From Heterotrichella gracilis (lineage: Eukaryota > Sar > Xanthophyceae > Tribonematales > Xanthonemataceae): a stretch of DNA of 64,000 nucleotides. Position 1 is the stretch's first letter. Every line of letters begins with the position of its first letter. Positions 3,077 through 55,100 of this stretch are shown here, piece by piece. Location: positions 1 through 64,000 of the forward strand of contig JAULBX010028049.1 of the NCBI GenBank assembly GCA_032358255.1, written 5' to 3'. The notes beneath the pieces were generated by a model. It worked only from the letters and a program-made list of their open reading frames with translations. It searched no databases and was not told the origin of the DNA. The translations under genes and the position numbers were made by a program.

Positions 3077-6000
3077 ATGGCATTGTTGGTGGGGCATGCT
3101 GTCGGAAGGCCGGTAGGTGGTTTCACCGCCACACAGCGAAGACAAGGCCAAAGGCACGCAGCTGTCAAAGTCAGCTGCGAAGGAAAGAACGGGAGGGGAA
3201 GGAGCACCTCTATAGGCACGCTGATTGAGGACGAGGGGGCCATCCTCATTCCAGGTGGGCACCCATCGTATCGGAACGAGATGTGTTGCCTCCTGGGCGT
3301 TTCCAAGCTCCCGTGCGACACGTGTTGACACAACGAGACCTCTTGCAGGTTGCTATGATGCTCTATCGGCGAAGATTTTGCAAAAAGCAGGGCACAAGGC
3401 GGGCTTCGTGTCTGGCAGTGGGGTACGTGAGCTAGCTAATGCATGCGTCGACACTCGCACCTTGCAACCCACAAGCTCAACCCCAGGAGCCCTACCAGTC
3501 TCACGTTCTCTACGCAAGCACTAGTCTCCCATGTAGTTGAACATCGCTGTCGAAGCCTCCTATGGTATACTCACCATAGTGCACCTCTCACGGTAACAAT
3601 TCATGCCTGCAATCCTCCTATGCACCTGCTGTGCCCCACAGGTGTCTGCCACGCTGCTTGGCGAGCCTGACCTGGGGCTATTGACCCTGCCCGAGGTTGC
3701 TCGCAAAACCAGCCAGATCTGCGCTTCCGTCGATGTGCCAATCATCACCGATGCTGACACAGGTGCGGAAAGGAATATGAAGGCCTCCAACTGCGGTGCT
3801 GGGAAACGTTTCCCTGTCTGTTTTCAACACAGCTGCCGCGTGGGTGTCATTGGGGAGGAGACGTGCATGGTCATACCTCACTGGGCAGATGGTGGATTGT
3901 ATAACATGATCCAGCAGGACTCCAGATCATATAACATCAACATTGTTATAAGGCTATGCTACACCTACCTGATAGGCGCCGCTCGTGCATGGGCTGAGTG
4001 CTAACCTGCTTGTACTGCTGGAATGCATGGGACTAAGTAGACCAATCCGAGACACACGGGTGGGCATGGCAGGTGGCGGGCACCAAGCATAGTGTGGGTT
4101 GCACGGGCCGTACCCCGTGTCTCTCTATGCACCTGGTGATGCGCCAACAGCTGATTTTTGAGTCTCTGAAAGAAGAAAGAACCTTGGGCAGAGGATTGAC
4201 CAAACCATCCCAGTACCATGTCCCACAATGAGGCCCGTGGTGTGGCTTGCCAGGTGGCGGCAACGTGCTGAACGTGCAGCGGGCGGTGCGCCAGCTGATC
4301 GCAGCCGGCGCCAAGGGTTGCTGCATCGAGGACCAGACGTGGCCCAAGCGCACGGGGCACATGCGCGGCAAGGAGGTCATACACATGGAGGAGTATGTGG
4401 CAAAGGTGGGCCCTGAACCCTATCTACAGCTGTAAACCCTAAATCCTAAACCCTAAACCCTGCTGGGGAGGAAGGTGGGGTGATGGGTAGATGTGTGCAC
4501 CACACCACACGCGTCGTTCGCAACAGGGTGCCTGATAGTGGCGCTGGATGTGGTGGCATTGGAGCGGTTCTTGTTGGAACAACTGCCATGCCGTCTAGGG
4601 TAGCGTCTATGGCTGCGTGACCCTATCCATGCACAATGTATGTGCAGCTTGTGTGTGAATGCCCTAGGATGTTGAAGCAAAAAGCACGTGCGATCACACC
4701 CTGCCGACAACTTCACCAACCCACCTCCCTACCACATCCACCACCACAACCCCCACTCGCCCACAACATCACCAACCCACCTCCCCACCACATCCACCAC
4801 CACAACCCCCACTCGCCCACAACTTCACCAACCCACCTCCCCACCACATCCACCACCACAACCCCCACTCGCCCACAATTTCACCAACCCACCTCCCCAC
4901 CACATTCACCACCACAACCCCCACTCGCCCAGAACTTCACCAACCCACCTTCCCACCACATCCACCACCACAACCCCCACTCACCTACCCCACCCCGCCC
5001 GCAGCTGCTCGCCGCCAAGGAGGCCTCTGGCGACTCTGACTTCTTCATCATCGCACGCACAGACGCGCGCGCCACATCTGCAAAGTTTGGGGTGGACGAG
5101 GCCATCCGGCGCGCCAACCTGTACCACGTGCGGCTGAACCCTAAACCCTGAACCCTTTCCGCTGAACAGTTAGTTTTGGGCGGACCAAGCCATATGGCGC
5201 GCTAACCTGTACCACGTGCATTGCGACAACATGGAATTGAGTGAGACAAGACATGGCAATTGCCGTGATGAACTATGAAAATTTCTCTAAATGGTAGAGA
5301 AAACTGTGCACGGCATGCCCGGGGCGGCCATGCATGACCCACCTCCTTGCTGTGGGGCAGAATAAGGGCAGCAAATGCCACCGAAAACCCTAATATGTAA
5401 ACTTTAAACCCTCATTTCTGCCTCAGGACGCGGGAGCCGACGCTACCCTCATTGAGGCGCCCAGGAGCGAGGCGGAGCTGGAGGAGATTGCGGAGAAGAC
5501 AAAGGTGGGGCCCACAAAAATAAAATACGGGGAATAAGACAAGTGCGTAGGGTTGAGGGGCTTTATGAAAATCAAGCAATAAGTCGCGATGCCAAGCTTG
5601 GTGATTACATGAACGCCGGGCTCAACACAGGAGTGTCAACACGCCTTGATGTGGCCACCGCCATTGGCCTGCCTGACCTGCCGCTGCATCTCGCATGGCT
5701 TGACGTACAGTCACAGAATGCACAGAAAGTCATGGTGCGTCTCAACCGCCACCGCGGTCATCTGGTTACGCTGCACGGCTGCACGCACTTAGGCAGTCTG
5801 AAGCCCCTTGGAGTACCCATGACAAGCACTAAAATATTACAAGCACGTAAATAATAGCAAAAGTAATCAAATACACGCTGATGCACTCTTCAGTATTTGT
5901 AATGTCTTGTAGTTTTTCCTCAAAAGGAGGCTATGAGCGTATGAATGGGCGATGGTTGAGGAGGAGGTATTGTCCATGAGGGCAATGCACCAAACACCTG

Positions 6001-6877
6001 GCACATGTCACTCCTGCACCCTGTCATTTCCTCCCCGCCCACCCCTCGGCTCACACCACCTCACCCCCCTACAGGGCCTGCGCGCCATCAACATGCTTGA
6101 GGGCGGCGTGACCCCGCTCAAGACATTTGAGGAGCTCAAGGCTATGGGCTTCCACATAGTGCTGTACCCGCTGTCAGGTGAGGGGTGCCTGGGGAATCCC
6201 ACCTGAACCCTAGTCAAACCCTACCTTAACCCTAGGCTGTGCTGTATTCAATGTCAGGTGGAGCAGAAACAAGGGCGCATGAGGATATTGCGGTTTTACT
6301 GCTCATTGACCTCCTTATGTCACTCACCACCTTCAGCCCCTCCCCCGGGCCTGTACGCCGCCACGCGCGCCATGCAGAAGATGTACAGCTCACATCACTG
6401 GCACTCACCCGCCATTTTCACCCTAAACCCTAACCCTTCCCCTGCAGGCCTCTATGCTGCCACGCGCGCCATGCAGAAGATGTACGGCTCGCTTGCGTTC
6501 ACCGGCAGCAGCGCGGGCCAGGACATGGTGTCGTGGAGGGAGTTCAACACAATGGTGAGGGCGTGGGTGTAGGGTTTGTGGATTAGGGTTTAGAATGGGG
6601 GTGGAGGGGGGCAGGGGACAGGGTGTCGTGGAGGGAGTTGAGCTCATTGGTGAGGCCGGAGGGGGGGGTTTGTAGAGGTGACGCGATAATACTCATCTGC
6701 AACCCACACTTTCACCCACTTTCCATACTTTACTGACATGATCTCTACCCCCTTGTGCAGATGGGCCTTGAGCAGAAGTATGCCCTGGAGGAGCGCTACA
6801 CCAAGCGTGACTTCAGCGAGGGGGAGGAGAGGCTGAGGGTCAGGGTGCGCGCCCCGGTCAAGCCATCGTCAGACTGA
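3077..6877 (+). CDS. PEP mutase / isocitrate lyase superfamily protein
   Basis: Nine exons: 3077-3254, 3349-3422, 3642-3762, 4254-4405, 5005-5127, 5427-5504, 6075-6177, 6448-6554, 6761-6877. All introns are GT-AG and the frame closes to 350 residues. The ATG at 3077 gives a basic, Ser/Thr-rich leader of about 45 residues that looks like an organelle transit peptide. An in-frame ATG at 2981 is the alternative. The core follows plant carboxyvinyl-carboxyphosphonate phosphorylmutase-like proteins: the CYDALSAKI block, then DADTGGG (metal-binding Asp loop), IEDQ, IIARTDAR, DAGADATLIEA, and MLEGGVTPL. Enzymes of this family make or break C-C or P-C bonds next to a carboxylate. The exact substrate cannot be read from sequence. 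Two exon edges are duplicated in the introns, with telomere-like tracts between the copies, and intron 4 carries a 56-bp minisatellite. Confidence 0.9.
4711..4990. repeat. 56-bp minisatellite in intron 4
   Basis: About five head-to-tail copies of a 56-bp C/A-rich unit (begins near accaacccacctcc) lie in intron 4 of the PEP mutase-like gene, ending just before the acceptor of exon 5. The period was checked from accaac at 4715, 4771 and 4827. Copies differ by single bases. There are no spacers, so it is not a CRISPR-like array. Confidence 0.9.
5091..5219. repeat. Exon 5 donor-edge duplication with telomere tract
   Basis: The last about 40 bp of exon 5 with its donor (5091-5131) recur as a diverged copy at 5180-5219. 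Both end in aacctgtaccacgtgc. The gap starts with telomere-type heptamers, ccctaaaccctgaaccc, at about 5137-5153. Confidence 0.9.
6345..6490. repeat. Exon 8 acceptor-edge duplication with telomere tract
   Basis: A copy of the start of exon 8 lies upstream in intron 7 (about 6347-6391), encoding the same LYAATRAMQKMY peptide. The real exon starts at 6448. Between them is ccctaaaccctaaccc at about 6421-6436. The copy lacks a good acceptor. Confidence 0.9.
6521..6655. repeat. Exon 8 donor-edge duplication with telomere tract
   Basis: The end of exon 8 with its donor (6521-6560) recurs at about 6615-6655, sharing gtgtcgtggagggagtt and the following ggtgagg. The gap holds tagggttt units in the G-rich orientation at 6569-6592. 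This is the opposite orientation to the tract at the other end of the same exon. Confidence 0.9.
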
Positions 6878-12508: not shown

Positions 12509-15500
12509 GCTTCATGCACAGCATGTGCACCTTGATCTGGTCGTGCTTCCCCTCCAGCCGCACGTTGTGGTAGAACTGGATGGCGCCCTTGTGCGCGCCG
12601 CCTCCCCTGCCTGCCCAGGGGGTCACGTCCACGGGGCGCAGCCCGGCATCCGTGGCACTGGTCAAAAAGGTGTCCAAGGTCTGCTCGTTGCGGATGGTGG
12701 TAGCCAGGAATGCAGATGGGTACTGCGTGGTGTCGCCTGGCCCTGCCTGCACAAAGGGCAGTGGGGAGCGGTTGTCGGTGCACGGCTGGAATGCACCCCG
12801 TGTGAGGCATGAGCTCCATAATGGTTCCTGTTTCGCCTTTCTTCGACGGTGCAAGTGACATCCATCCGTGTGGGGCTGGGGCACATGACATGCTCTACCC
12901 CACAAGAGGCTTGCATGTAGGAGTGTTGTCAGTGCAAGGCAGAAGGTACTAATTGTAGTGTGGTTGAGCGCACCTGTGGGGTCAGTAGTTGCTGTAGGAG
13001 CTGCACCAGGGCTGGGATCACAACTGCACACAGGCAACAAAGTGGGTTGGCACCATTGCAAGCAAAGACAGGGGCAAATGCATGGCAGGACACAACAAAG
13101 AAAAGCTCAATTGCATGGCAGCACCCAGTGCCACAGTGCGTATGAATCCAGGAGACCAATTGCTCGTGAGGTACACCATTGAACATGCATGTCAGGTGCT
13201 TGCCGGAGAGGCTCTTGACCACCGCACAATTGCAACAGCTGCCAAACCACATGTTGCCAGCCACAATCAGCCACGGGGAGGTCAACCACCATCTCGCAAG
13301 AACCTTCCCTGGGTTCCTAGGGTCCACGCCAAAGGGTGCGAGAGGCATGGCAGGCTGGGGAGATGCCTCCCCGCCTCCACACCAAAAGCACTTAATTGTT
13401 TCCCTCACCTGGGTCATACAGGATGTCCGCTGCCACCACCACCTCTGGCACCAGGTCAGTGTCCTCCTCCCATTGCAGCTGCTGGCACACAACCTGCACG
13501 GTAGCAGTGAAGGAGGACATTAACTCCCTTGCCGCAGGCGTTTCAGGCACGCATTCAAGGTAAAGAATTGTTTTTGGGGAGGGTAAAGGGGCCTACCATC
13601 TCCTTGATGCAGAGTGATATTGCATACGATGATTGTACAGCCTGAAAGGTTTTTCATTTGGTTTTCTACAAATCTGTAAAAGACATACAATTTGCCCATC
13701 ATTAAGAGACGATTCGCCCCCTGCCCACCAGCCACCAGCCTATTGCCTGCTCTGCTCACCACACACCCCACCCCACCATCCACCCACCTGCTGTGTGCTG
13801 CCAGCGGTGCCCGCCTGTATGCCGTTGATGGCCAGGTTGCGCCTGCAATTCTCCACCGTCACCTCGTCGCCGTCGGTCAGCCACACCTTGCGTGCCCCCG
13901 CGCGCTGCAGGCCCACGCCCACCACCCCTGCACCGCACCCGAGCTCCATGCAGCGCCGGCCTGTAAGGTGAAGTGGGGTGAGGGGTGAGAGAGTGGAGCG
14001 TCGGGGATGAGCAGAGGTGTCTGGACGCGGACTAATGGTTGCGCATGCTGAAAGCTGTGTTGCACAGCATTGTCCGCCATGCAGGTGCTCCTATCCGTGT
14101 CAGGCAAGCCCATGCAATTGCGGCGATTCCCCGTGCATATACAGTCCTTACCCTTGAAGATGATATGCTGATGCATGCATATACATTTATTACTCCAGCC
14201 CTTGCAATGCTCACGCTTTTGCGGCTGTCATGCATGCATATGCAGTTGGCACCCAAAAATGCTTCGATAGTCTTTCATGCAATTATTTCTCAATCTTTAA
14301 TATATGTGCAGTGCGTACCCCATGCACAAGCAACACCTACTGTGAACAGGTGCATGTGATGCTCCACCTTGAAAACGCAGTGCTTGCTTACACATGCACA
14401 CGCATGCATATGCCATGAGTACCCATGTCACCTAACCCGTGAACAGGTGCGGGTTGGTGAGGTTGCACATGCGGCACTTGGTACCCATGAGCTTGCACAT
14501 GCGACCCTTACCCGTGAACAGGTGCGGGTTGGTGAGCACAAACTCAGCCAGCAGGAAGCCCGCCTCCCACTCGTGGCACCCCGTGTTGCCCGCAAACATG
14601 TTGGGCGAGACCCGCATGGTCAGCAGCCCCGCGCCCGAGCCCCCACCCAGCTGCTCCTGGTGGATGAGCCCAGACAGCGCCTGCTGATACTTCCCATCCG
14701 CCCCCGCGTCGCCGCACTGGTCGTCCATGCTGCGCCGCCACCGCTCCCTGTTGGAGTGCTCGTCCACGCTGCGCCGCTGGCTGCGCAGCGCCTGGGCGTC
14801 CAGGCTGGCGCGACGGAACCCCTTAGGGTTCTGCTGGTGGCTGGGTGAGGGGCATGGCCCGTAGGCGAAGGTCTTATAGGTCCAATCCCGGCCATCCACC
14901 GCGTTATAGGCATTGAAGGCGTAGTCCGCGCAGCAGTCCTGGTCCGCGCTGGTTGATGTGTTGAAGGAGGGGGGCACCAGGAGCTTGGTGTGGAGGTCCA
15001 GGAGGTCCTCATGGAGTTCCTGCTTGTCGGACTCCGCTGCTAGGAGCACCGCCTTGACGGCTTTCCTGCAGCAGGGAGTAGGAGCGGAGAGCCGTCAGAA
15101 ACGTGGGATTTATAGGTGTCAGAGGGGTGGTGGATTTGAGGTTTGGGGGTGAAAGTTAGTAGGTACTAGCTTGGCTAGCCTTGGGACAAGGACAAGGATG
15201 CAACATGGGGTGGCATGCACATGTGCCCAGGACCCAGTTGCAGATGGCAGTGGCTAATGGTGCAGACGGTTGTCAAAAGGCCAACCAAGCGGAAATGGAG
15301 CTGTGCACGTTGCTTGGCACGCAGCTTTAACACGCCCTGGTGGCTCACGTGTGCAAGCCCATCGTGTGGCTGTTGGAGGTTCTGGCTGGTTGCAGCAGGC
15401 CCTGTTGCACCTTACCGTTGGTACTCCCGCGCGGGAGGGAACGACTGGGAGATACGGTCGTTGACACACAGCTCCAAGAAGACATCTTGCTGCGTCAAGC

Positions 15501-16382: not shown

Positions 16383-19300
16383 ATGTCGATCGACCCACCA
16401 ACGGTTCTCAAGAGCAGACGGCAGCCACCAGCTGTGCAACGCCCACCCAAGGTTTCGACCGTCGGTCGTGATGCTACACTGGGAACCGCAGCTGTGAGTT
16501 TATCATCCTCGTTCTTGTAACCAGCCTTACCAACACCAGTTGACTCCAGTACGCCAACTGCAATGCATCGCCTGGCCAAGCGCACGCAAACCGACGCATG
16601 CACGCATGCACAGCACCCAGCGAGATGGCGTGGTGTGATATATAAGTCGCGTGGGCACCCAGTGTGCAACCTGTGTGCGCAAGTGGGCATATGCATGCAT
16701 GCATTGCATGCAACTGGGGACTCATTATCTTACTCTGACTTTTGCTTCATTCTCTTCATCAGAGACGATCTGATGACGGGAAAGACACTGGAGCACAATC
16801 CCCCACACAAACAAACGAACACCTCCCAAGGTGTTGTTCACCCCACCCTTTTCCCCCCATTCCATTACGTTGTTCAACCCCCTTGTGTGTGTGGCGCAGC
16901 CTCGGGACCTGCAGCTGCTGGACAGGCACTGGGAGCTAGCAGTGGAGCAGATAGCACAGGTACGCCAAAAAAACCTGGGTACCCATTGTGTGTGGACACT
17001 CAATAGCTTCCCTCGATCGTGGGGGCATGTCCATCTGCGGCGGCCGTCACGACCCCTGGTTACGGTAATTTTGACGTTGCTGCACCCGCGCAGGTGCTGC
17101 CGGATGAGCAAGACTTCCTGGTGGTGGGCGTGATTGGAGGTAAAACCCTAGCGTAGGTTTTTGAAGTGGGGTTTTGGTGAACCCTAGTGTAGGGTTTGGG
17201 GTTGTAGGGGCTACGCCAACGCCGCCCCCACAAGCACTGTCCCCATTCCCACCGGTCACGCCATCCCCGTCCCTGCACCACCCTCAGCTGCCCCATCGCA
17301 CGACCCACCAGCAATGCTACCCGCACCCCCGCAAAGGCGACATCGCAACCCACTGCTCCCACCACCTACCCCTTGCACTGACCATCGTTGCCATTTCCTG
17401 AACTCATCCCTGTGGTGTGCAGTTGAGGGAGTGGGCAAATCAGCCTTCCTCAACCAGCTGCTAGGTATGCTTGGAAACCCTAATCAAAACCTTAACCAGA
17501 TTTAAAACAGCCTTCACCAAAGTCACAAATGTGGGGGCAATACACACAGCAGCCACTAGGTTCCCGTAATAAACTAGAGATTTTTTGCTTTTTTTGTCAA
17601 ATTTATTCGTTTTTTTAATCGTTGCCCATTGCCAGCTGGGCAAGCGCACACCTGATGTTGAACACTATTTTTGAGGGATGTTGTTTTTTCTCCGCTGCCC
17701 GCGCTCTATTGAATCATTGTCACAATTACAAGTCCGTGCAAAGAATGCATGGAAAGAACACCATCCCATCCCTTCCCCTTCTTTCGCTTTGGCACGTCCA
17801 CTTCCCTTTACACCCCTGCCCTTGCCCCCTTGGCAGATCTTGGTGGCGGCCCCACGCAGTCCCCACCCCTCCACCAGCCCTTCCCCACCCGGGCCCCCAC
17901 CGCCCCCCTCACCCGCCACGCCACCCGCGGCATTGCCCTGCGCACCAGCCGCGACAACATCACAGGGCTTGACACCCAGCCGCTGTTCAGCAGCTCGGTA
18001 CTGCAGGTGGGTTGCTGGTATTTGCAGAAAAAATGAAAATTAATAGAATGGGGGTGTAGGGTGTTGGGACTGAACATGTAACCGCTGTTCAGCAGCTCCG
18101 TGCTGCAGGTGGGGTGCTTGAAGTATCTGAAAAAGGGCGTATGTAGGGTTTATGGTTAGGGTTTGGGACTGAACATTCAGCCGCTGTTGAGCAGCTCGGT
18201 AGTGCTGCTGGCTGGCGAAGGGTCTCAAGATCGCACCGCATTTCCCACATGTACGGCACATGTTCCCCGCACACGCGTGATCTTTGATGCTCATGATTCG
18301 TTAATGGTCCATCCCAACCCCCAAACGGCCACCTCCTCAACCGCACCCAAGCCATCACCAAATTGCCACCAGGGCTGTTATCTTCGTCGTTCTAAATGTT
18401 TTTGAGCCAAAACGTGTGGCAGGAAACGATCACGTGGGGTCCCGTGTCGTTGGGGGTAACGAAGATTTCAAACTAAGATGACAGCACTGACTGCCACCCA
18501 CTACCTCCCCAGGAGCTGATGCGCAGCGAGCGGCCCCCCAGCGGCGTGGCGGGTGTTGCTGCATCGGCGGTGGGTGGCAGCCGGGGTGACCTTGCAGGGG
18601 AGGCGCTGCAGTACCTGATGGAGGTGCAGATGGTGGCGCTGATGATGCGGGTGTGCAATGTGGTGCGAGGGGGGTGGGGGGGTGCTGACGATGCTGGTTT
18701 TGCTAACGTGGTGTGGGTTGTGTCAGGGGTGATGATGCGGTGGGTGTGCACAACTAGCGGCGTTGATCCTTAACGCCGATGGGCCAATGGACGCAGTGTA
18801 CGTATTTACGCAATGTTTGTTTACTTGTTCCCTCATTTTGTGGGGACCTGTGACGCAGGTTGTGGTGATGACCGATGACCCATGTGATCCCCGACTGCTG
18901 CACCTGCTCCAAGCAGTGGAGATGATCCTACCCGATATACCCGCCATCACCGCCCCCGCTGGGGCCAACCAGACGCTGCCACCTGGCACACAACGGCCTG
19001 GACCCAGCCAGGTGAGCGCAGAAATACGAAATACGAAAAATAAAATAATTGGGTGGCTCGATTGCATGCAGTGGTTCAGGTTTCTAGGGTGATGTGCTAG
19101 GGTTGTTGACTGCAGGCAGCTGGCCTGGGTGAGAATGTGGATGTGCTGGGGCTTTTGTTTGGGCCGCGTTGCATCCTTCCCATGGGTCACACCCTTGACC
19201 TAGGGTTTGCCCACAGTCCCTGTGTGAAACCCTACCCCATGTCATACCCTTCACCAGGGTTTCACCCCCCGCCCCCCACCCTCCCCATCCCTCACCCCCC

Positions 19301-37275: not shown

Positions 37276-37385
37276 AGCTTGTGCACTGGGTTGGAGGCGG
37301 CGCTGTACTTCTTAGGGATTTAGGTTTTGGGGTTAGGGTTTACCAGTTTGTGCACTGGGCTGGAGGCGGCACTGTGCTTCTGACG
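37276..37385. repeat. Exon-edge duplication with telomere tract
   Basis: Copies of ttgtgcactggg.tggaggcgg lie at 37278-37313 and 37347-37381. Between them is ttagggatttaggttttggggttagggttt-type sequence (37313-37342). This is the same design as in the recognised genes. Confidence 0.85.
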
Positions 37386-39213: not shown

Positions 39214-39248
<35 letters not shown>

Positions 39249-41034: not shown

Positions 41035-44000
41035 TTAATCCGCCCACGAGGGGTCCTGCACCGCGATGTTGAGCGACGCGGGGTCCTCGCTCATGGCCCC
41101 ATAGTCGTGGATGCGGTTGAAGCGCCAGAACGGCTCCATCTCCAGCTCCTTGTTGGTCCCGATGACCAGCACGTCCCGGAAGTCGCTCCACCACTGGTCC
41201 ACCTCTGACACCGAGAAGTAGTTGATGGGGAACTGGTTGCTCAGCAGCAGGCCTGGGGAACATTACAACGGAGGTGAATGAGGAAAATGGATAAATGCAC
41301 CAGTTACAGGATGTACAAGATTTTATGAACCAATCTTATCAGATATAAAGACCCATTACCTTCTGTGTGCCGCGGGATCCTGAACCCTAACCCTAAACAG
41401 ATTCTTCCCCAGTGGGAACGAAAACATGCGCTCCACCCCAGTTCCCAGCGCCAGCAACATGGCTTCATAGCACTCCCGCCCACCACCACCACCACCACAG
41501 CCCCTCACCCCCATCCACCACCACCACCACTAAACCCTTGAAAGATTCACGTTCCCTCTCGCCCTCACCTTCCGTGTGGCGCGGTATCTTCTTCTGCAGC
41601 AGGAACGAGAACACGCGCTCCACCCCCGTCTCCAGCGACAGCCCTATGGCCTCGTAGTACTCCCTGCCCAGAATGATCCTGTGCTGCGTCTCCTTCTCCT
41701 CAAACATGATGGTCAGGTCAACCATGTGGCCCCCGTTGGTCTTGTACTTGCGCAGGTAGTAGATGTTGTAGCTGCAAACGAAACACTCATTGTTCACATT
41801 ATTGGCATTCAATTATTTTTTAATTTTTGTCTCCACTCACGTGGGTCTTGTGCTTAAGCAGGTAGTAGATGTTGTAGCTGCAGTGGATGAGGTTCATGTT
41901 GGAAACTGAAATGGACAAGCAGAGAAGTTCCCAAATGATGCGGCGTAAGCTTACGTGCCATGCAGGTACTTGTACATGTGCCTAAACCCACCCATGGGGA
42001 CAACCAGTCAAAACCAAACAGGCAAAAGCAAGGAATTGGCAACAGAAAGGCAAGGTGAAGCCGACTAACACGACCCAGCAGGACCTCAGGACGTACGAAA
42101 TTGACATAAATGGTATAAGCAGCGCCAAGACCAAACAGATACTGGGCGCAGCATGTGCAAAACCGACTGCCATGTGGCTGCATGGCAGAACTGCAAATAA
42201 TTGCCTGACTATGCCATCTGGTGAACGTGCTGTTTGCGGCTATTGCCTGATGGGGTTTCTGTCCAGAAGAAACGGCACGTTTTAAATGTAGGTTTGAAGC
42301 TCAAGGTTTTGGGGTTTGGCCACTTGCCTGGTGTTGATTCCGTCCAGTAGGAATGGCACGCTGTGCGTGTCCGACTCCTGCTCAGCTGCCTGCCGCGCTG
42401 ACTCAGCAATCTCCTCAGCGGTCAGGTCCTTGGCGGGCAGGAAGTCAACCTGCAGGGACAGGTGAGGCGATCAAACTTTGAACCCTAAACCCCGTATGAT
42501 AAACCCTATATCTCCTCAGCGGTCAGGTCCTTGGCGGGCAGGAAGTCAACCTGCAGGGACAGGTCAGAGGTTTAAACCTTGAACCCTAACCCCTGGACCA
42601 TAAACCCTACCATCAGGCGGCCCAGTGAGGTGCTTGGCTGCCAGCACTTTGCTGACTCAGGGACTGTCAATCGAGCGCTCGATAGGCACAACTCGCTGTC
42701 AAGGCTCATTAGTTTATTATTGCTCGACATTACGTCATTTGCCTCCCAGGTACAGCCAGATGAGCCATTATGTTTTCACAGCCAGGGCCACCCAACGGGT
42801 GGAGGTGGTCAAAACTCTAAACCCTAGAGGGCATAGCGTAAAATGCGGCTGGCTCCATATGCATTGCCAGATGGATGTCATACACCATAAGTTGCCATAC
42901 AAAACCACCACACTCGTCAATCCCATCTCCCACCCAATGACATATGCATTCCACCAGAAATGAGAGCCCCCCCATCCCCCCCACACCACACCACACCACA
43001 CCACCACCACCCACGCACCAGCCCCTCCGCCAGCTTTGCCGTGTCCGGGTCGAATGTCTCATTGCACCCCCGCGCCTTGAACAGCACCATCATCTCGGTG
43101 ACCTTGGACTCCGCTGCCTGCTGGCGCCCGCGCGTGCTGATGGCACCGCCGTCCACGGGCAGCTGCCACGCGTTGCGCTCCATGGCCACTGCGGTAGGGT
43201 TTAGGGTTGAGCATCCCTTCCAATGCAACGTAAGATTTATGTATTACATGCATCTGCATTTGCATTTGGTGGTTCCACATTAGATTACACCCATCATACT
43301 TTCCATGCCCAGTGCCAATTGTTGCAGTCTATGATTGGCATTTACTATAATTTCCAATGAATATTAATACCGCCATGATGCAATTGAAGCGTGCACCTGC
43401 ATATGTATGAGTACACACCTCCATATGTACGCGTGTGCACACTCGCAGCGTACACTTCTTTCCCAGCGTTTAACCCCCGCACTCCTCAAACCATGCATTA
43501 CATGCATGCATATGCGTGCACGATTTGGGGCGTACGTTTGTTCCCCGGTGGCGGCCCCCCGCACTCCTCAAACCAAGCATTGCGCGTGGCCACCATCTCC
43601 TCCTGGTCTAGCTTCTCCAAGTTGACGACCCTGCACACGCGGTACACCCCAGAGTCAAAGATCGCACTGCTGCCGCTGCTGTTTTCACTTGCAAGGGAAT
43701 GCCTTGTCTGGCCGCCTGTCGGACACCGTCCTCATGCTTTAAAGTTGAAGAGTCAAGGGTCAGGATTTTGGGGTTTCACACTGCTGCCACTGCTGTCACT
43801 TATAGCAGAACGTTTGCCTGGCTGAACACCGCGCACAGGGTTAGGGTTTAGGGTTTTGCATTGCTGCTGCTTACTTGTAGAAGAACGCCTTGTCCGGCCG
43901 CCTGCTGAACACCGTCCTCAGCGAGTTGCGCAGGTCCTTGGAGAAGCCCACGTACTGCAGCTTCTTGGCCTCGTCGTACACGGCAAACACAGCGGCCTCG

Positions 44001-44611
44001 GTGTTCTCAGCCTTGGGCTGGATCATGCCCTACCAGGGGTGCAGGGAACGCGTGTGAACGAGAGAGTGTGGGTGAGGGAGGTAGCATGGAGAGGTGTCTG
44101 GGGAGAGTATGTGTGTGGGTGGGTGTCCGGGTGGGTGCGTGGGGGTGGGTGTGAACGGGTGAAGATGGGCGTGTGTGCATAGGTCGGTGAAGGCGCGCGA
44201 CCTGTTAGTGCACCTATCAGTGCAGCTGCCATCCTGCGGAAGTAATCCGCTACATGCTACACCCCACACGAGTGTTTAGTGCAGCAACGCCATTCCTGTT
44301 TGCAAGGGAGAATCCCTCCCGCACCAACACCACAAAAACCACGCCCCGCTGAGGGGCAACTGGACCCTAAACCTTAAACCCTGTACCTGTTGGTTGATGA
44401 AGGGGATGAGTGGGAGGTCAGCCAGGCTGGGTGTGGTAGTGGCTTCCGCTGCCGCTGCCCTTGGCACCACAGCTGCATGGCGGCAGCTGTGGGTGAGGGG
44501 CTTGGCGGGGGTGGCCGCAGGGCCGCAGAAACGCTTGGCAGGGGTTCCACTGGGCGCAGGTCTGGAGGCTGCCGGCTGAGCGCACCTGCGCCAGGAGAGC
44601 GCGTGGGGCAT
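41035..44611 (-). CDS. Predicted plastid protein with GIY-YIG-like domain
   Basis: Seven exons in gene order: 44387-44611, 43875-44029, 43536-43630, 43019-43188, 42328-42449, 41569-41771, 41035-41252. The lengths sum to exactly 395 residues. The first about 55 residues (start ATG at 44611) are Ala/Arg/Pro/Ser-rich, like a plastid transit peptide. Residues about 80-165 hold VFAVYDEAKKLQYVGFSKDL and LDQEEMVATRNAWF, resembling the GIY-YIG-like domain found at the N-terminus of plant glutaredoxin S16. The downstream half has YNIYYLRKYKTNGGHMVDLT, ERVFSFLLQKKIPRH and INYFSVSEVDQWWSDFRDVL, which I cannot place in a family. The intron between 42328 and 41771 must use a GC donor (ag|gcaagt) to keep the frame. 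Four exon edges are duplicated in its introns, more than in any other gene here. Confidence 0.75.
41358..41678. repeat. Exon 6 donor-edge copy carrying a telomere tract
   Basis: The donor half of exon 41569-41771 (41568-41678) recurs at about 41358-41480. The copy is interrupted by tgaaccctaaccctaaac (41381-41398), so here the telomere-type tract lies inside the copy, not beside it. The shared parts include gcgctccaccc and tcccagcg-like blocks. Confidence 0.88.
41735..41883. repeat. Exon 6 acceptor-edge duplication
   Basis: The acceptor edge of exon 41569-41771 (41735-41774) recurs at 41841-41883, sharing aggtagtagatgttgtagct. The copy also encodes an NLIHC extension before SYNIYYL. The gap is AT-rich, with no telomere tract. 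Confidence 0.88.
42409..42610. repeat. Identical 55-bp acceptor-edge duplication with telomere tracts
   Basis: The exon edge at 42409-42463 is repeated without a difference at 42510-42564. It includes the acceptor of exon 42328-42449. Telomere-type tracts (gaaccctaaacccc, aaaccctata, gaaccctaacccctgg) follow each copy, at about 42479-42509 and 42580-42609. The lack of divergence suggests a recent event. Confidence 0.95.
43662..43921. repeat. Donor edge present three times between telomere tracts
   Basis: The donor end of exon 43875-44029 (43855-43921) recurs at about 43662-43737 and 43775-43838. Each shares a gctgctgc.. start and an aacaccg-like end. The gaps hold ggattttggggtttcac and gggttagggtttagggtttt. 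Confidence 0.85.
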
Positions 44612-45901
44612 GTGTGAGGGAGCATGCGCGCGTGTAGGGGGGTGGCATGTGGGGGTCCAAGCTGGATAGGTGGTGGTGCAGGAGACACACTGTACACAGA
44701 ATGCTCTCCACAGTTCACTACTTCAAATTCTCACCACCCAAATCTTTGGGCCCTTGAGAAACGTGGCATGTCTAGGCCCGTCTGTCCTCAGTCATGACTG
44801 GGCAGTGTGGGCCCAACCACACAACCCACTGTGGTGTATCCCAACGCATACATGGCGACAGACGGCGGCAGTGGAAAGGAGATATGTTTGTTTGGTAGTT
44901 GATGCGGTTGAGGAGCCCCAGGCTTGCAGCATCCGCGCCATCGCCGGCGCCATCGCGTTACTAACATGCAGACCGAAAAGGGTGTGGTGGCACTGCACCA
45001 CCCACTCCACCCACGCCCTGATTGAACGCTTACCTGCTTGAGGAAGAAGCTTGTTTCCCCAGAGAGCACACATCAAGGCTATTCCGGGACAACTGGGCAG
45101 GAAAGGCGTTACTTTAGTGATGGGATAAGGTTGGCCACCCATGGCGCTGTGACACACATATGGGCTTCAACAGGGATGGCTACACAAGACTGTACCTTGA
45201 ACGCCCGCATAGTGACGAAGGTAGCACCCACAGCCCAGGACGTTGATTAACCGAGGGATGAGTTGCGGCCAACGCCTACACACCAGCTGCCAACGTTTCG
45301 TTCGGCAGCCTAAAAGGATGGCGCCTGGTGTATACGAGTACAACTACCTAGTGTAGAATAGATGTTGACCCACAACAGGTTCCACCGAATACTGGCTGCT
45401 AGAGGTGTGCAGGAGTTGCTTTGGAACGCAACTCAACGCATCCGTGGGTGGTTTGTAAAGCAAAAAAGGCTTCCGAAACTTTGTTCGCACGAGAAACACT
45501 TTTCCGGCGAAAATCTGCTGTTTATCTTTTCAGGGATGTGAACATATATATGAAGCGGGGATGACGTGTGCCATGTGGCGAGCACACAGGAGCTGGCGGC
45601 GAGTGCCCACTTGCAAAGACGCAGTTAACGTTTACAAGCACTCTGCACATAACGGGCAGAGCGCGACAACACAACACGAAAAGGCGAAAACGATACCCTG
45701 CCTGTTTTGTGCGTCTACGCAACCATTTTAGCCGGCGAGCTCCACACATCGATCCCCACCTTGGCACCCGCATATGCATGCATTGCCGTTCTGACAACTA
45801 GACCCAAGCTTGCCCGTGCAACACACGACCAACCGCAACCTAATCAACTCCTTGCAATGAAACCAAAGCCTTGATAAACTTGGTTCTTAACTCGTCCAAC
45901 A
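44612..45901. other. Divergent spacer
   Basis: This lies between the start codons of the GIY-YIG-like gene (-) and RRP12 (+) and should contain both promoters. An RY-type gcatatgcatgcat motif sits at about 45770-45783. A 120-codon minus-strand frame at 44792-45157 has no support. Confidence 0.5.
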
Positions 45902-48900
45902 ATGGAGACCCCGCCTAGGGACACCAGCGTTGTGGCGGAGGTGCGAGCGCGGCATGGCAGGTCGGCCCAACCCGAATCCCGCCAAATTTGCGCAGTGCTG
46001 GCGGCGGTGGTGGAGGTGGTGGAGGCGGAGGGCCTCGAACCCACACCCACCACACTGTTCGCCGCCGTTATGACCGCCATGGAGAAGCCAGAGGCCCGCC
46101 AGGACCCGGGGGTGAGTGGCACTCTGAAAACAAATAGGAACAGAGACAATATGTTTGCACCCTTGGGGCAGGCAACTGGCACCGGTTGGCTAGGCACACC
46201 GTAGCCAGGCTGGTGTTGTTTCTGCCTGTGTTGTGAGTGTGCACAGCCGCTGGCACACTGCCACCCACCCTGGAGGCCAGGGTTACAGCTGTGGGGTGGG
46301 TACAGCTACCAACTCAGTGGCAGTCGGCTTGACTGCGCAACCCAGTCGGCTTGACGGCTTGACTGCGCAACCCCACTCCAGTGCACCCGCCATTCCAGGG
46401 TGAAACCAGTGTCCACACACACCCACACCACTAGTGCACCCCCTACATACGCACCCGACACACACACCCTAAACCCTAAATCCCATGCCCATAGGTCCTC
46501 TCTGCCATGCTCAACGTGCTGGCCTCGGTGCTTGGCCGCGTGCCCACACCGGTGCTGCGCGCAAAGTTTGCCCCCGCTGCCCAGCTGCTGCACAGCGCGG
46601 TCAGCGCGCAGCTGCAGCACGCGGCAGTGGCCAAGGCAGGGATAGGCTGCCTGGCGCAGGTGGGTGGCGGGTCCTGGGTGGAATCCCGCAGGCACCTGGT
46701 CCATGCATGTACCAGGCTGCACTGGTGCTGGACTGGGCTGCTTTGGACTGGACCACATTTGGCTGCACAGGACAGTTCTCAGATCCAATTTTCTCCCATT
46801 TCATACCCCACATGGAGTGCCAGCAGCCCTCAACCACCACACATAGTCTCATGCTGCAACCCCCATCCCCACACACCCACACCCACGCACACACACACCA
46901 CACACAGGTGCTGGCAACGCTCAACCCTAAACCCTGAACCCTGAACCACAGGTGCTGGCAGCGCTCAACCCCGCTGAGTGGCCCTCAGCGGTTGAGCCCT
47001 TTGGCCTCCTCCTGCGCGCATGCGGTGACGGCAGGCCCAAGGTGCGGAAGCGCGCGCAGGCCGGTCTGATGGGCGTCATGGCGGCGCTGCAGGGCACACA
47101 GGCGCATGGGCCAGCGAGCGAGGCGCTGCTCAAGGGTGGGTGGTGGTGGTGGTGGGGAAGTGCATGAGGCGATGGCGTCGGCGGTGGTGGTGGCGATGGT
47201 AGTGGGGGACTGCATAGCCATGGGGCTGCCGATGCTGCCTTCCATTTCAATCTCTGCTATCATCCAACATGAATTTCAATATTGTTATAATTATCCGTGC
47301 GCTTGATGATGCATCAGCATCAGTGGGGGCATGCGGCTCCTCTTTGGCCCGATCCAAACCCTACCCATCCTGCCCGCCCCTCAACCCCCACCCCTCCCAC
47401 CCGCAGTCAGCCAGCGCGTGCTCCCTGGCCCCGAGGCTGCCGCCCACGCCGCCGCCCAGGCCCCCGCCAAGAAGCGCAGCGAGGCTGAGGCTGTGATCAC
47501 CAGTGCTGTGGCTGATGCGCTGCACTGGCTGGGGGCGCTCAAGGCGGTGCTGCCGCTCATGGCAGGTGGGTGGTGGGGGTTGAGGGTAGGGGTGGGGTTG
47601 GGGTTTTTTGCTGCAGTGGCTGGGGGCGCTCAAGGCGGTGCATGGCACCTCATGGCGGGTGGGTGTTGTCTGTGGGTGGGCTTGGGGGTGGGGGGTTGCA
47701 CTGTACTGTCACAACCCATGGCGACCACAACACAAGCTCATCTCACACATGAGCATTCACCGAAGCCAGGGGTGGGTACCTTTGGTGCATACTGGTGAGT
47801 AAGCGCTCATCTCACGCCTAAGCCACCGCCCCCCGCAGGCACCCCCGCCACCGCCGTGTGCGACCTGCTCCTCAAGCTCTACCCACTGCACCAGCCACTG
47901 CTGTCGCGCCACGCCACCGAGACACTCACATGCCTGGCGGGCAGCGGAGTGGGCCACGTGAGCGGCCCACAGCTGGCGGGGGTGCTGCGGGGGGTGATGG
48001 GGAGTAGCGCGGCGTGGAACCGTAGGGATGTTGATGTGGTGCTCTCGCTGACGAGGCTGGTGGAGGCAGGGTGCATACGGTGGGTGGTGGGGTGTGGGGG
48101 TGCTGGGGAGGCGGGTGGAGGCGGGGTGCATGGGGCGGGGGTGGGTGGGGACATGGGGCTGTTGCTGACGAGGGTGGTGGTGGGTGACTGAAGGGACGTT
48201 GCTGTTGAAGACGGTGGGTGCATGTGGTTTAGAGCTTAGGGTTTAGGGTTTGGGAGGCGGTGGACGGCGGGTCTGCAGCACTGTGTGTGAGGGGAAGGGG
48301 GGAAACATTTGCATGCAACTCCATGCTCACATGACTGCCCACGGTGTATCTGCTGGCATTTAGATGCATGTGGGTGCAACTGGGGCATGGAGCTCTCACC
48401 AAGCAGTATCACCACCCACCACCCACCTCACCATCTCCCACACACAGGCTGCGCGAGCTCGACCCGCAGCTGTCCTCCGCTGCCCTCCCCCAAGCAGTGC
48501 ACCTGCTGGTGGCACAGCTGGCAGCCGAACAAGATGGGGTTCGATTTGGGTCATCACAGGCGATTAAGAATCTGATTGACCAGTGCATGGATCCGGAGAT
48601 GGTGGCGCAGGGGGTGGGGAGGCGGGGGGGTGCGCCCTCGCCTGCGGAGAGCGTGGTGGCGGCGGTGGCGAGCGCGCTTGGGGCCACCTACCAGGATGCC
48701 TGGGGCTTGGCGCTGTCAGGTGAGGGGTGGAAAAGTTGAATAATGCTATCATTCCATGATATTATGAAAACCCGTATCATGGAATACGGGTTCAGAGTTT
48801 CTTCATTGCCCAGCATTTGTGATGTAAGGAGTCAAAATGCACCTGCAGGTATACAACTGGCTCTGGTACTGCCGCACCTACAATGCATGGCGTTTCAGTG

Positions 48901-51900
48901 TGTTGCGCATGTCACGTGCCATGCATCTGCATCCGCATCCGCATCTGCATCTGCATCTGCATCTGCATCTGCATCTGCATCTGCATCTGCATCTGCATCT
49001 GCATCTGCGTCTGCATCATTCCACCACTACCATCTACTGCCTTTCCCCTCCCCATCACCCCCACCCCCCACCGCAGTCGCCTCCGTCCTCTTCCAACAGC
49101 TGGGCCGCCCTGGGGCGCCCCTGGCCGCACCCCTGGTGCAGCGAATAGGCCAGCTGTGCGGGGGAGACGCCGACGTTGCCGAGGGCAATGATGTGTCGGA
49201 AAGCGTGGCGCCGGGCCAGGCGGGTGTTGCTGCGCAGCCTGCGCTGGGTGCTGCGCTGCGGTGGCTTGGGCCTGAGGCGGTGCTGGGGGAGCTGCCGCTC
49301 AACCTGGTGGAGGTGGGTGGACAGATTTGTTCTCTAGATGGAGTGTTTGTATGATGGAATATTTTATAAATGTTAGAATTGTCGCCATTTGGCTGACATG
49401 ATGATTTCTGTAACCCCTGTTATCTGTCATCTGGGGTTGTGCTAACCTGTGGCGGTGCACCTAGGGTTTCACTGCCGCTGCCGAGCCCAGCACCTAGGGT
49501 TTTGCATGCCAGACACCCAGGGGTGTTGCTAACCTCAAACCTTGCCCTATAGGGTTTTGCCGGCACTGCCGAGCCCCGCACCTGGATGCTGCTGCTCATG
49601 CGGCAGTATGTGCGGGGCGCACGCCTGGCATACTGGGGCAAAACCCTACTGCCGCTGGCCAGAACCCTAGGGTCTCGGGCAGCAGCGGCGGCAGCCGAGG
49701 GGGGCGTAGCAGCGGAACGGCAGGGGATGCAATGCAGGGTCCTGGAGCTCCAGATCTGGAACACGTTGCCTGCATTTGGGTCCTGGGCGGAGGACACCAG
49801 CGATGGACTGAGGTAGGCCGGGGGATAGCCCTGCTGGGGATTGGAGTATTGTTTTCCTTGTTGTGGAACGATGATGAGGGCGTTGGCGGGTTGTTACAGT
49901 CAGATGGGGCACTGCTCGATCCCTAAATGAGGGCATAGGTGGTGCTCATCTTCATTAGGGCTTAGGGCTTAGGGCTAGGGTCTTTTTAACACACGTGTGC
50001 CATGTTGTCTGGGATTGACTGTTGAATTAGGATGTGGCGGCGCATGTGCATGGCTTAAGTGGCTGGTCCATCCCTTGCCTATGACGATCCTCTCGTTGTC
50101 GAAACCCTAGCACAGGCCCTGCGCCTTGTGAGGACACACACGAATTGTCACTACCACTGAGGCAAATGCAGGCTGGGCAACCACACATGTATGCAGCCTG
50201 TCCCTGCATTTCCACCATGCTCTTCCATATAATCCCTTGCACCCCCTTGCCCTGTGCTACCAGACCGCAGTAGCCATGCCACGTGATGTGTTTGGCGTTT
50301 AGGCTGTTTTCCTTTGCTGCGTGATGTGCATGGCTGCCCTCTCCTTGTGCCTAGGACGATCCTCTCGTTGTCGAAACCCTAGCACAGGCCTCGCGCCTTG
50401 TGAGGACACACACGAATTGTCACTACCACTGAGGCTATCCTAATACACACAGGGCAGCCATGCACTGTCTGCACTTGCGGCACGACCATGTGCTTAAACG
50501 AACAGGCACCATATTCAAACTTGCACATTGACAACAGTTCGGATAGCTTAATTCGGATTTAATGCTTCAAAAACGGGATCATTTGCTTACAATAAATGAG
50601 GTTGACACCAGCATCCAGACCAACACATTTTCTCCTCATTTGCCTGACGATTACACAACGCAGGCTGTTGTCTCTCAAACCACCCTGGTACCCTCCTTAC
50701 CCCCGCTACCTCCCACTACCCATCCCGCCCCTCTCCACATGCAGGATGTACGCCAAGGATATCGGCGCAGCCTTCCAGAACCGACCCGACCTGCGCACCT
50801 CCATCTGCACCTTCCTGCAGCGGCTGTGCCTCCAGAACCGCGCCGCGCTGCGGTCGCATGGTGTGACTCAGGGCCTGGGCTTTGGGGAGCCGCCTGGGCT
50901 GGGGTGGGGTGGGGATGAGGAGGAGGGGGGCGAGGACGAGGGGGAGGAAGAGGGGGTGGGGGAGGTGCCGCAGGGGTACACGCTGGAGGTGGCGCAGCGG
51001 TGAGTGGATGGTGGAGGAGAGGGAGGTGGGGTGGGGGGTGTACGCGGCGGACGGTCCCTGTTGTGTTTGTCAGGGGGACTGTATTGTACAGTGGAACGGG
51101 TTTGGTGTTGCATCCTGCAGAGACACCCATCAGTATTCTACTAATGTTGTTCTTATCTTTCCTGTACATGCTGCGGCAGTTTGCTTGCATGCGGTGGTGC
51201 CTTGGAATATACACCCTCCACCTACCACTCACCACCCACCACCCACCACCGCCACCCGCAGGAATATGGCCACCATCCGCTCCTTCGCCACCAACTGGCT
51301 CCCGGTGCTGTTCAACGCGTATGTTACCACCCCTGGGGGGGAGCGCGCGGCACTCTCCAATGCCATCGCAGCATATTCGGTGGTTGCCGAGCCTGCGGTG
51401 CTGTCTGAGTTCTTCCGGACCGTCATGCACAAGCTCATCAAGGTGGGTGGGGTGGTTGGAGGGGGAGGGGGTGGGGATTGGTGATGTGGCTGGGCGGGAC
51501 AAGCTGTGGCTGGCAAATCAAAGCCAATACACTGTGTGATGGTTGTTATTATAAAAAGAAATGCCCATGCAGTGCAATGGTATCAGCAGGTAAGAAAATG
51601 ATAAGTACGAGGCCTTTGTTTAGTCACTCCTGCTAAAATCCTAGACCCTCGCCATCAAGCTTAGAAAATCGTCCCTGATCCCTAAATTTAAGCTGATACT
51701 CCCCACCCAGGTCACTGAGGACGCCAAGGCCTCAGAGCTGCCCAGGGATGCGCTGCGCGAGGGCGGGGCAACACCCTCAGAGCGGCGCGGCACCTTTTTG
51801 GACATGGCGCTATACCTGGCGGGGGGCCTGGATGTGGCAGGGGCGGCCACGCTGTACGCTGCGGTGGAACCGTGCTTGCAGGTAGGGTATTTGGTTAGGT

Positions 51901-52068: not shown

Positions 52069-52117
<49 letters not shown>

Positions 52118-55100
52118 TCACAGGAGAGGGAGTCGGTTGTTCAGAAGAAGGCATACAAGCTCCTTGCCTACCTGTGCGAGCACCGCCCCGACTTCCTGCG
52201 CACAGCCCTCCCGGAGGTGGTGGGGGCGCTGCGGGGGGGTCTGGCGCACGCGGTGTCTGGCGCGCGGCGGTACCGGCTGCGGTGTGTGCGGGGGGTGGTG
52301 CGGCTGCTGGCGCTGGAGGGGGAGCTGGCGGAGGTGCTGGAGGGGGAAGGGGAGGTGGAGGAGCGGCGGCACCAGGTGCGGGTTGGGGATGGGCATCGGT
52401 GGGGGGTCGCTGGTTGGTGGGTGTGCCCCAGGGTTTGACCAACAGGAACTGTGCTTTGCGGGGTGTGGACGCGGGTCCTGCGGTGCTTTTGCATGGAGAA
52501 CATGTCATGTGGCGTTGTTGCAACCATTTCAACCAGTTTCATGTCCACAAAGGTAGATCACATAGAGCTGTGGCACTTGATGTTGGTATGAAGTTTGTGT
52601 CATGTGCACATGTGTCACTGCCCCCTTCCCTGCCAATGACGATCCTCTCGTTGTCGAAACCCTAGCACAGGCCCTGCGCCTTGTGAGGACACAAACGAAT
52701 TGTCACTACCACTGAGGCACACCGGCGGGGCAGCTATCGATACACCTCTGCATTCCACACATTCCATGTTAAGCTCTCCATAATGATTGCAATCATTCCT
52801 GCCAGCCCGCTTGTCCTGTACACTCTCCACGCACCCTCCCAACACCCTTCTCCTCCCCTTCCCGTCCCCCTCCTCGATTCGCCTCCTACACCACCACCCA
52901 TCCACCATTACTCATCACCTCACCACCCACCCACTCACCTCCCCTCCCCCCCCCCCTCAGGTAATCGCCTCCCTTGTGAGCGAGGTGGTGCTGTGTGTGA
53001 AGGAGGTCAACACCAAGACCCGAGCCACTGCCTACCAGCTGCTTGTGGACATTGCGCGCACAATGGACCAGGCGGAGCCCGCCACGGGGGTGCAGGATGA
53101 TGAGGAAATGGGTGAGTGGGGATGGGGGCAGGCGGGTCGTTCCGCAGATCTAATCACGGGATTTACAGGATGTATTTGACATTCTAATCATTTGTACAGA
53201 TGTAAACGCAGTTTACATAACTGCAATTTTATTTCAAAAAGCGTGGCAAGGTGGAAGCTCCTAGTGAAAAGGAAACGGTATTGAAGTATTAAAAAAACAG
53301 AGGATATTAAAAGATAATTTTACAAGATACAAGATTTTATTTGACAGTCACATTCAGGGAGCCAACCCGGGCTCGCGAGACTGTTGGAGGCGCTTAAAGA
53401 AGTCACCCCGCTCACTAAAAAGTCTGTGAATTAATGGAGCCACATTGGCCTCACACTGAAAAAGCTAAACAAGTTCCTACTGAAAAAGCTAAACAAGTTT
53501 CTAGGAATATCATCATAACAACTATGAAACGTTTCTCGGATGTCGTGGTATAGTGGACATTCAAAAATAAAGTGGTGTTCATCTTCAACATGATGCTGTC
53601 CAATTGTAGTGCAGTACTGGCACAACCTATGCTCATACTGGATGTGTCTCCATCTACCAGTTTCAACCTCAAGATTATGGGCACCCAGTCTAAACCTGGC
53701 TAACTCAACCCTATGGCTTTTGCACAAGTCTCAAGTCAAATATTCTGCCATTGACCCCCAGTCACCCCCCTGTATGCTAACATACTGCATAGTTTTTTTA
53801 CTCGCATTGACTGTGTTTGACCTCAAGTATGCCAGCCTCGCTGTTTCCATTAGCTCCTCGATCTCGAGCGCTTCCGGGCTGGGTGTCAGGACAGGTACGC
53901 CAACAGGCTGGCTTGCTACCGCGCTGGCATCAACCATCTCCCCCGCGAGGGGTGTGTGGCCATGTGCCTGGGGATGCGCGTGCTCCCCAGTTAAAGGATA
54001 ATAAGAAATTATCAAAGACATAATAACAAGTATATCTAACAAGCATTATGAGGAATTAAATTTATTACTAACCTTCCCATTGGATATGAAAATATGATAT
54101 TGATCCTACTCATCCTTGAAGTACCAGACACCAATCTACTGCACCCGCAGCCGACGCCACCTTCCCCCCCACCCGCCCATGTGCACCCTGCGCTGCCTCC
54201 ACCGGCCGCCCATAACCCCCAAACCCCACCCGCAGCCGACGCCGCCCTCTCCCCAACCCGCGGCGGCCTGCACCGCTTTGTGACCATGGTGCTGGGGGGG
54301 CTGGCGGGCGCCACCCCCCACATGATGTCGGCGACGGTCATGGCGCTGGCGAGGCTGGTGTATGAGTTCACTGCGCCCCTCATTGCAGCCATGGGCCAGC
54401 TCATGCCCGCTGTGCTGCTGCTGCTGCGCACAAAGTCAAGGGAGCTGGTCAAGGCCGTGCTGGGCTTTGTAAAGGTGGGTGGGGGGGGGCCTGGGATCGG
54501 TTCTAAGGGGTGAGTAGATATGAGATGGGATGAAAGGGGGTTGCGGAGTTTGCTTTGTGCAGATAGCTGGATGCTAATTGGCACAGTGTGAAAGTGACAT
54601 CAATGGCAATTCCCTTGCACCACGCTCCCCACGCCTTTTCGTCCCCTCCCAGGTTATCGTGATGCGCCTCCCCCTTGAGGAGCTGCAGCGCCACCTGGCG
54701 GCCATACTCGAGGGCCTGCTCATATGGGCGGAGGATAGCAAGAACAAGTTCAAGCTCAAGGTCAGTGGGTGCACCTTATCTTGAGGATGAACTGAAATCC
54801 AGTGTATTGAGATAATTTGAGTTTTTATGTCTGATCCTCATTTGTAAATATGTAGACATCTCTTTTTCTCATCCTTATTCTATGTGTATCCTCACCTCCA
54901 GGTGCGGGTGGTGGTGGAGCGCCTGGCCAGGCGGTGCGGCTTTGACGCCATGTCTGAAGCCATGCCTGAGGGCGACCGCAGGCTGCTGACGCACATACGC
55001 AAGGACGTGCACAAGCGGGAGCGGCGGCGGCGGGGGGATGGAGACACCGAGGTGGGGATTGGTTGGTTGCGCAGGGGGGTGATAGGGGTGGTAAGGCGTG

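Follow-up and report, generated by a model that had tools for sequence, protein, structure and literature searches.

Short interstitial telomeric sequences (ITSs) of mammals are inserted at double-strand breaks, and the direct duplications that flank some of them have been ascribed to staggered breaks (PMC2246262, PMC7215372). Duplication alone was recorded there at 3 of 66 loci in the horse, 6 of 130 in rodents and 4 of 25 in primates; deletion was commoner, and the intronic share of human ITSs fitted random insertion. We analyzed a 64,000-nucleotide stretch of Heterotrichella gracilis from contig JAULBX010028049.1 (hereafter the window; C553:1-64000 in a genome of 68.5 Mb and 903 contigs), in which sequence at exon edges is repeatedly present in two or three copies, often around a telomere-like tract. 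These sites have in common with mammalian short ITSs the species' own telomere motif, a short non-terminal tract, random filler and, in some cases, a flanking direct duplication, and the likeness to break-repair ITSs that a first, sequence-only reading of this DNA had proposed was thus borne out. They differ in that 26 of 60 perfect tracts were duplicated here, a figure obtained by alignment without empty alleles and so measured differently, and in that the copies were concentrated at exon edges. Our best reading is that this is the known short-ITS process, which in this genome is frequent, produces long duplications and is focused on the edges of exons.

Four further systems are close in one respect or another. 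Daphnia neointrons (PMC4202315) share direct repeats attributed to staggered breaks, repeats of exon ends and a proposed trend to longer introns; however, their exon-derived repeats are 4-12 bp long, the main text never mentions "telomer", and the repeats create introns, whereas the copies described here are longer, come with telomeric DNA and lie at the edge of an existing intron. In intron gain by tandem genomic duplication at AGGT (PMC3443670) a duplicated exonic segment also provides extra splice sites, but the segment duplicated here extends across an exon edge that already exists, and one of its copies is intronic. Direct repeats near intron splice sites (PMC11782384) resemble ours in lying near intron borders and in having a break-repair explanation; they measure 4-30 bp and occupy the two borders of one intron, whereas ours are longer and lie on one side of the intron. 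The green alga Chlamydomonas reinhardtii also has an internal telomere repeat, but it is one band of about 200 bp that varies between strains and has the motif TTTTAGGG (PMC6549138). No description of exon-edge duplications with telomeric tracts was found in the literature at title and abstract level, with few subscription journals covered.

The motif itself is well defined. CCCTAAACCCTAAA occurred 2784 + 2845 times in the genome (overlaps counted), compared with 3 + 2 for a reversed control. Runs of at least 8 perfect units made up 33 overlapping placements at 11 places: on the plus strand they fell in the first 200 bases of C70, C140, C609, C712, C717 and C770, and on the minus strand at one place each in C173, C460, C607, C660 and C872, far into these five contigs. 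By the orientation of its long runs, TTTAGGG behaves as the species' own telomere motif. Specificity was assessed in 290 kb, consisting of the window, C2:1-200000 and 26 kb from three further non-overlapping stretches. Among 20 circular heptamers of the same composition, the telomere unit gave 89 tracts, 19 of them between duplication copies, whereas each of the 19 others gave at most 5 tracts and at most 2 between copies. The long-run placement and these controls support the earlier description of the tracts as telomere-type DNA. The 290 kb contained 126 interstitial tracts, 119 of them within predicted introns, and 60 more loci on many contigs formed a targeted set of stretches of about 420 bases, each around a perfect three-unit tract, CCCTAAACCCTAAACCCTAAA. 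This motif has 428 + 406 placements genome-wide, and the 60 stretches were the first distinct places in the motif listing, up to C45, with C2:4499 and C8:83659 omitted because the 290 kb already covered them.

Tracts were flanked by direct duplications much more often than control positions were. When the 150 bp on the left were aligned to the 150 bp on the right and a direct match was counted at a score of at least 20, 11 of 38 tracts in the window were flanked (19 of 631 tract-free positions), as were 21 of 81 tracts in C2:1-200000 (59 of 1447). Pooled, this amounts to 32/119 against 78/2078, with an odds ratio of 9.4 and a Fisher p of 8.7e-17; inverted matches were seen at 1/38 and 0/81 tracts, respectively. 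In the targeted set, 26 of 60 perfect tracts had a direct and 1 an inverted match, compared with 32 of 3540 pairs of left and right flanks mismatched between loci, and at a score of 30 there were 16 direct, 0 inverted and 0 mismatched-flank matches. The association of tracts with duplications claimed from the window was therefore upheld against controls and replicated. A second, unbiased scan ignored tracts and counted local duplications of score at least 24. It found 85 in the 290 kb, 21 of which had a tract between the copies, where 2.8 were expected and the maximum over 500 random placements was 9. Stronger tracts were flanked more often (21/61 vs 12/65, p 0.046). A weak telomere-like run of at least 7 was present in 10 of 50 tract-less gaps against 5.2% expected, an excess suggesting that some tracts have probably decayed, with most such gaps lacking any sign of one. 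Both tract orientations that had been reported were present, 13 G-rich and 17 C-rich among duplication-flanked tracts in transcript orientation, with no clear strand bias. With 33 tract-flanking duplications in 290 kb (0.4% of the genome), extrapolation would give about 8,000 genome-wide.

Exon edges were taken from our own small hidden Markov model (HMM) gene finder, in which the splice-site matrices were fixed and the coding model was retrained three times; it was run with two penalties and the looser one was retained. It predicted 442 exons and 399 introns, with median lengths of 156.5 and 309 nt, respectively. Models were compared with homologues for three genes, with one edge found to be wrong (43687) and one missed (6447/6448). 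The best named homologues came from volvocine algae, and a search for the Rubisco large subunit gave no match. A PEP-mutase-like protein, with two exon edges set manually, aligned with algal homologues across both edges. The aldo/keto reductase model, cut at residue 388 before a doubtful tail, aligned with PDB 1lqa from residue 48 to 388. In gene 42285-45773, the duplicated edges 42449 and 43874 agreed with homologues, but acceptor 43687 did not.

A predicted splice edge lay inside a copy in 24 of 33 tract-flanking duplications of the 290 kb; random placement gave 8.6 ± 2.5 such cases, and tracts that lack a duplication gave 12.2 ± 2.7. In the unbiased scan, 17 of 21 duplications with a between-copy tract (random 5.8) and 35 of 58 with no tract nearby (random 22.0) were at a splice edge. 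Seen from the introns, 56 of 358 that were at least 100 nt long echoed the neighbouring exon edge, at 60 edges (35 donor, 25 acceptor); the intron bore a tract at 32/60 echo edges vs 134/599 edges without an echo, and in 19 of the 60 the tract lay between the copies. Where an echo reached the edge, it was followed by GT in 13/19 cases and preceded by AG in 14/21 (together 27/40), and the elevated similarity continued about 20 nt into the intron. These figures support the spare splice sites that had been suggested. Among tract duplications of identity at least 0.9, 4/5 in the 290 kb were at edges; among the targeted loci the figure was 5/10 by HMM (16/26 overall) and 7/10 by eye, edges there being partly judged by eye because the stretches are short.

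The anatomy of the sites was studied in 59 tract-flanking duplications, 33 from the 290 kb and 26 targeted. Copies ranged from about 25 to about 150 nt, and filler sequences differed between sites. Within the 45 bases outside the copies, no tract was found in 45 of the 59, a tract on the right only in 9, on the left only in 5 and on both sides in 0, the chance level being 0.034 per side. When tracts within a copy or at another position in the gap were counted as well, 24/33 (290 kb) and 13/26 (targeted) were clean, and by both tests 35/59 showed clean copy-tract-copy structure, L032 and L054 being dropped for an outer tract. Copy-tract-copy is therefore the commoner form (clean young examples are L049, L080, L046 and L050), and arrays of copy plus tract are a large minority (L056, L058, L076, L084 and window 42409-42609). 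The exon-edge case of highest identity in the 290 kb (0.97) was L027:1173-1350 (C2:181173-181350), with copies of 68-69 nt that differ by little beyond one deleted base; its predicted acceptor CTGCAG lies between the tract and the exon copy and is absent before the other copy, as if supplied by the insert.

Within the window, the unbiased scan found 23 local duplications, 8 of them with a between-copy tract. A predicted splice edge lay inside a copy in 12 of the 23, or 14 when 6341 (from homologues) and 37275 (by eye) are added, and 9 of these 14 had a tract between copies. With 46904 included, there were 15 exon-edge places in 8 predicted genes, 37275 being outside all predictions, which agrees with the earlier count of twelve or more introns in six or more genes. 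Each of the ten intervals that the sequence-only reading had listed was confirmed to contain a direct duplication and a between-copy (CCCTAAA)n-like tract. Its statement that most cases carry a tract held for the exon-edge cases of the window (9/14) but not over the 290 kb, where tracts separated 19 of 60 echoes and 21 of 85 duplications. The sites are as follows.

5084-5219, plus strand: donor-edge duplication in the PEP-mutase-like gene; the exonic copy (5084-5131, donor after 5127) is followed by a C-rich tract (5137-5156) and then by a decayed copy in the intron (5172-5219).
6341-6490, plus strand: acceptor-edge duplication; tract 6420-6437 separates a copy in the intron (6341-6391) from the exon copy (6438-6490).
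6515-6658, plus strand: donor-edge duplication of the same exon; copies 6515-6563 and 6608-6658, donor after 6554, G-rich tract 6565-6593.
17965-18233, plus strand: donor edge in three copies (at 17965, 18067 and 18166); donor after 18006, tract 18144-18164 separating copies 2 and 3, weaker run between 1 and 2.
21512-21671, minus strand: donor-edge duplication; tract 21573-21612 between a copy in the intron (21512-21566) and one in the exon (21613-21671), donor 21618.
22855-23042, minus strand: donor-edge duplication; copies 22855-22902 and 22995-23042, long degenerate tract 22909-22986, donor 23000.
37275-37380, minus strand: duplication; copies 37275-37311 and 37344-37380, tract 37312-37342.
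37603-37692, plus strand: 12-nt repeat GGCCAAGCTCTT at 37603-37614 and 37681-37692 around a G-rich tract, found by eye.
42409-42609, minus strand: acceptor-edge tandem of edge-plus-tract units; copy 42409-42480 with tract 42481-42492, acceptor 42449, copy 42510-42581, then a second, outer tract.
43675-43920, minus strand: three copies of an exon end, namely the end itself, which runs to 43920, and two more at about 43777-43840 and at 43675-43734; donor 43874, tract 43837-43856.
46904-46971, plus strand: acceptor-edge 24-nt duplication; 46904-46927 and 46948-46971, one mismatch, tract between, exon start 46952.
14395-14535, minus strand: exon-edge duplication, no tract; donor 14436.
30249-30569, plus strand: exon-edge duplication, no tract, in the aldo/keto reductase gene (model backed by the PDB 1lqa alignment); donor after 30346.
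41734-41882, minus strand: exon-edge duplication, no tract; acceptor 41771.
43435-43581, minus strand: exon-edge duplication, no tract; donor 43535.
49433-49583, plus strand: acceptor-edge duplication, no tract scored; acceptor 49552, gap opening with AGGGTTTTGC, a weak telomere-like run.

Several of these edges could be compared with homologues. The PEP-mutase-like exon joint RANLYH|DAGADA, at the donor after 5127, agreed with algal homologues, as did the exon start VDFLPAK at 42409-42609. At 6341-6490 the acceptor AG is at 6446-6447 and the segment GLYAATRA is single-copy in homologues; this edge was left unscored because the HMM read through both copies. At 43675-43920 the likely acceptor is TGCAG near 43632. 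For 37275-37380 the minus-strand frame appeared coding by eye and the HMM called no exon. The weakest site, 46904-46971, fell below the score cut, since part of copy 1 is taken up by the tract. The 12-nt repeat at 37603-37692 was also under the cut and may be due to chance.

Other repeats were seen near these genes. Six overlapping copies of a repeat with a 56-nt period (4647-5044), partly called exon by the HMM, occupy the intron directly before the PEP-mutase exon. A TGCATC hexamer array (48910-49029) lies near an exon predicted for the gene whose start is at 45902, and a tract-less 165-nt duplication (50060-50495) lies inside the predicted intron 49813-50744. The first exons of the aldo/keto reductase gene (28086-31286) recur in part at 35100-35814, and the gene finder joined this second copy to the gene.

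On balance, we think it more likely than not that the tract-bearing sites are break-repair scars formed by fill-in duplication together with telomeric addition or capture, that is, by the known short-ITS process. A staggered break, or an equivalent re-copying, would occur close to an exon edge, and fill-in of the end would leave a stretch of 25-110 bp, or as much as about 150 bp, on either side. Before the ends are joined, telomeric repeats would be either put on one of them by telomerase or captured, giving copy-tract-copy; the frequent restriction of the tract to the gap between the copies is an argument for its arrival together with the duplication. The exon-adjacent copy would still be correctly spliced, and the insertion would be tolerated because the copied stretch includes the exon edge and splice site. 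The intron would grow, the far copy would decay, and repeated rounds at some sites would produce arrays of edge plus tract. Telomerase action and capture of telomeric fragments are indistinguishable from these data. The genome has matches to telomerase RBD, Ku, PIF1 and family-A polymerase. These make such a route possible, and a lost repair gene was rejected as the cause of the abundance, since none of them is missing. The family-A DNA polymerases at C442:116638-117765 and C111:216815-217945 are each encoded by a single uninterrupted frame (943 and 948 aa) in this intron-rich genome and may be of organellar type or belong to foreign contigs. A stronger version, in which telomerase-assisted repair prefers breaks next to splice sites, has left thousands of scars and made telomere DNA a main material for intron growth and spare splice sites, we consider doubtful.

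A number of observations weigh against the break-repair explanation. As many as 64 of the 85 unbiased duplications had no tract between the copies, which means that duplication does not require telomeric DNA, and 34 of 60 perfect tracts had no duplication within 200 bp. Only 11 of the 26 targeted perfect-tract duplications were clean by both tests, and no other tract was present within 150 bases in only 25 of 59 (18/33 + 7/26). At copy identity of at least 0.84, shared telomeric bases (3 nt or more) were found at the G-strand 3' joint in 7/33 and at the other joint in 2/33, several of the base-sharing joints sit inside arrays, and many joints carry filler. Copy identity was not significantly correlated with tract score (rho 0.32, p 0.067) or with tract score per length (-0.16, p 0.38). 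Young tract-less duplications were at edges in 5 of 14 cases, no significant excess, and 7 of the 14 were non-coding.

The exon-edge concentration might have no mechanistic cause: insertions in exons would be purged, pairs within introns would decay, and pairs at edges would stay visible through the constrained copy. This is a sub-question, otherwise compatible with break repair, and we regard it as a real possibility, though with the chances on the other side. A neutral simulation with purging in exons and constraint on the exonic copy, which ignores faster deletion within introns, raised edge cases from 33-34% at birth to 38-40% among detected pairs, and the 5/14 for young tract-less duplications is compatible with a null of 0.25. 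Against this stand 24/33 (p 1.4e-4) and 17/21 (p 1.6e-4) edge cases, both in excess of the simulated 0.40, and 11/15 at identity of at least 0.9 over both sets (p 0.009). Part of the exon-edge excess is, in this model, attributable to selection and detection, and the preference for edges asserted by the sequence-only reading, clearly above chance, appears likely but not proven for tract-type duplications.

Alternatively, the tract may have come first: pre-existing intronic telomere-like tracts would stall replication or recombine, and tandem duplications would form there with the tract as breakpoint or homology. Such an origin would account for the second tract on one outer side in 14 of 59 cases, well above the chance level given above, for a tract inside a copy in 12 of 59 (5/33 and 7/26), for arrays such as 42409-42609, L058, L076, L056 and L084, and for the 5-6 nt of telomeric sequence shared at the joint in L058, L076 and L086. 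Duplicating a pre-existing tract, however, would be expected to yield a second tract, and the 35/59 clean cases count against it; 11 of these are among the 26 perfect-tract cases, in which a second tract of the same age ought still to be seen. We find a tract-first origin rather unlikely.

Chance overlap between intronic telomere-like microsatellites and ordinary local tandem duplications is hardly credible, frequent as both are (126 tracts and 85 duplications in 290 kb), given the observed against expected between-copy tracts, the odds ratio and the motif specificity reported above. A mobile element or introner with telomeric ends is equally improbable. Copy-insert-copy does resemble a target-site duplication, and L064, L070 and L075, three of the 60 loci, have part of the right flank in common (scores 30.5 and 30) and may mark a small repeat family beside the tract, but only 2 of 7080 same-side comparisons over these loci, with tracts masked, reached score 22, both with L075. 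It is this comparison, and not the mismatched left-right flanks, that addresses a shared element. Copy lengths are variable, fillers differ and both orientations occur, in accordance with the earlier view that no mobile element with fixed ends is involved.

Two further candidates were rejected. Intron birth by tandem duplication, suggested earlier as seeding of new introns, was not borne out: a repeat between a donor and its own acceptor (score at least 20) was found in 6 of 399 introns, compared with 1 of 4000 random pairs, and five of the six matches were out of register. The sixth (window 43688-43874) kept register to within 1 nt, but the 19-20 residues that would be added by its acceptor are missing from algal homologues, which makes this acceptor a gene-finder error. 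No seamless intron birth was thus found among the 399 predicted introns. For capture of exons from RNA, moving the comparison from 0 to 100 nt away from the edge reduced the echoes from 16 to 1 among 178 exons on the donor side and from 19 to 1 among 190 exons on the acceptor side; this fall-off, together with the carriage of GT and AG, points to contiguous duplication of DNA and makes copying of spliced RNA unlikely.

It is not yet settled how introns grow, or how frequently telomerase works on internal breaks. A genome with thousands of scars that differ in age, if this is what the sites are, would allow both questions to be tested by comparison of strains. Our results also suggest that a telomere-like repeat in an algal intron can be a relic of repair and not a regulatory box.

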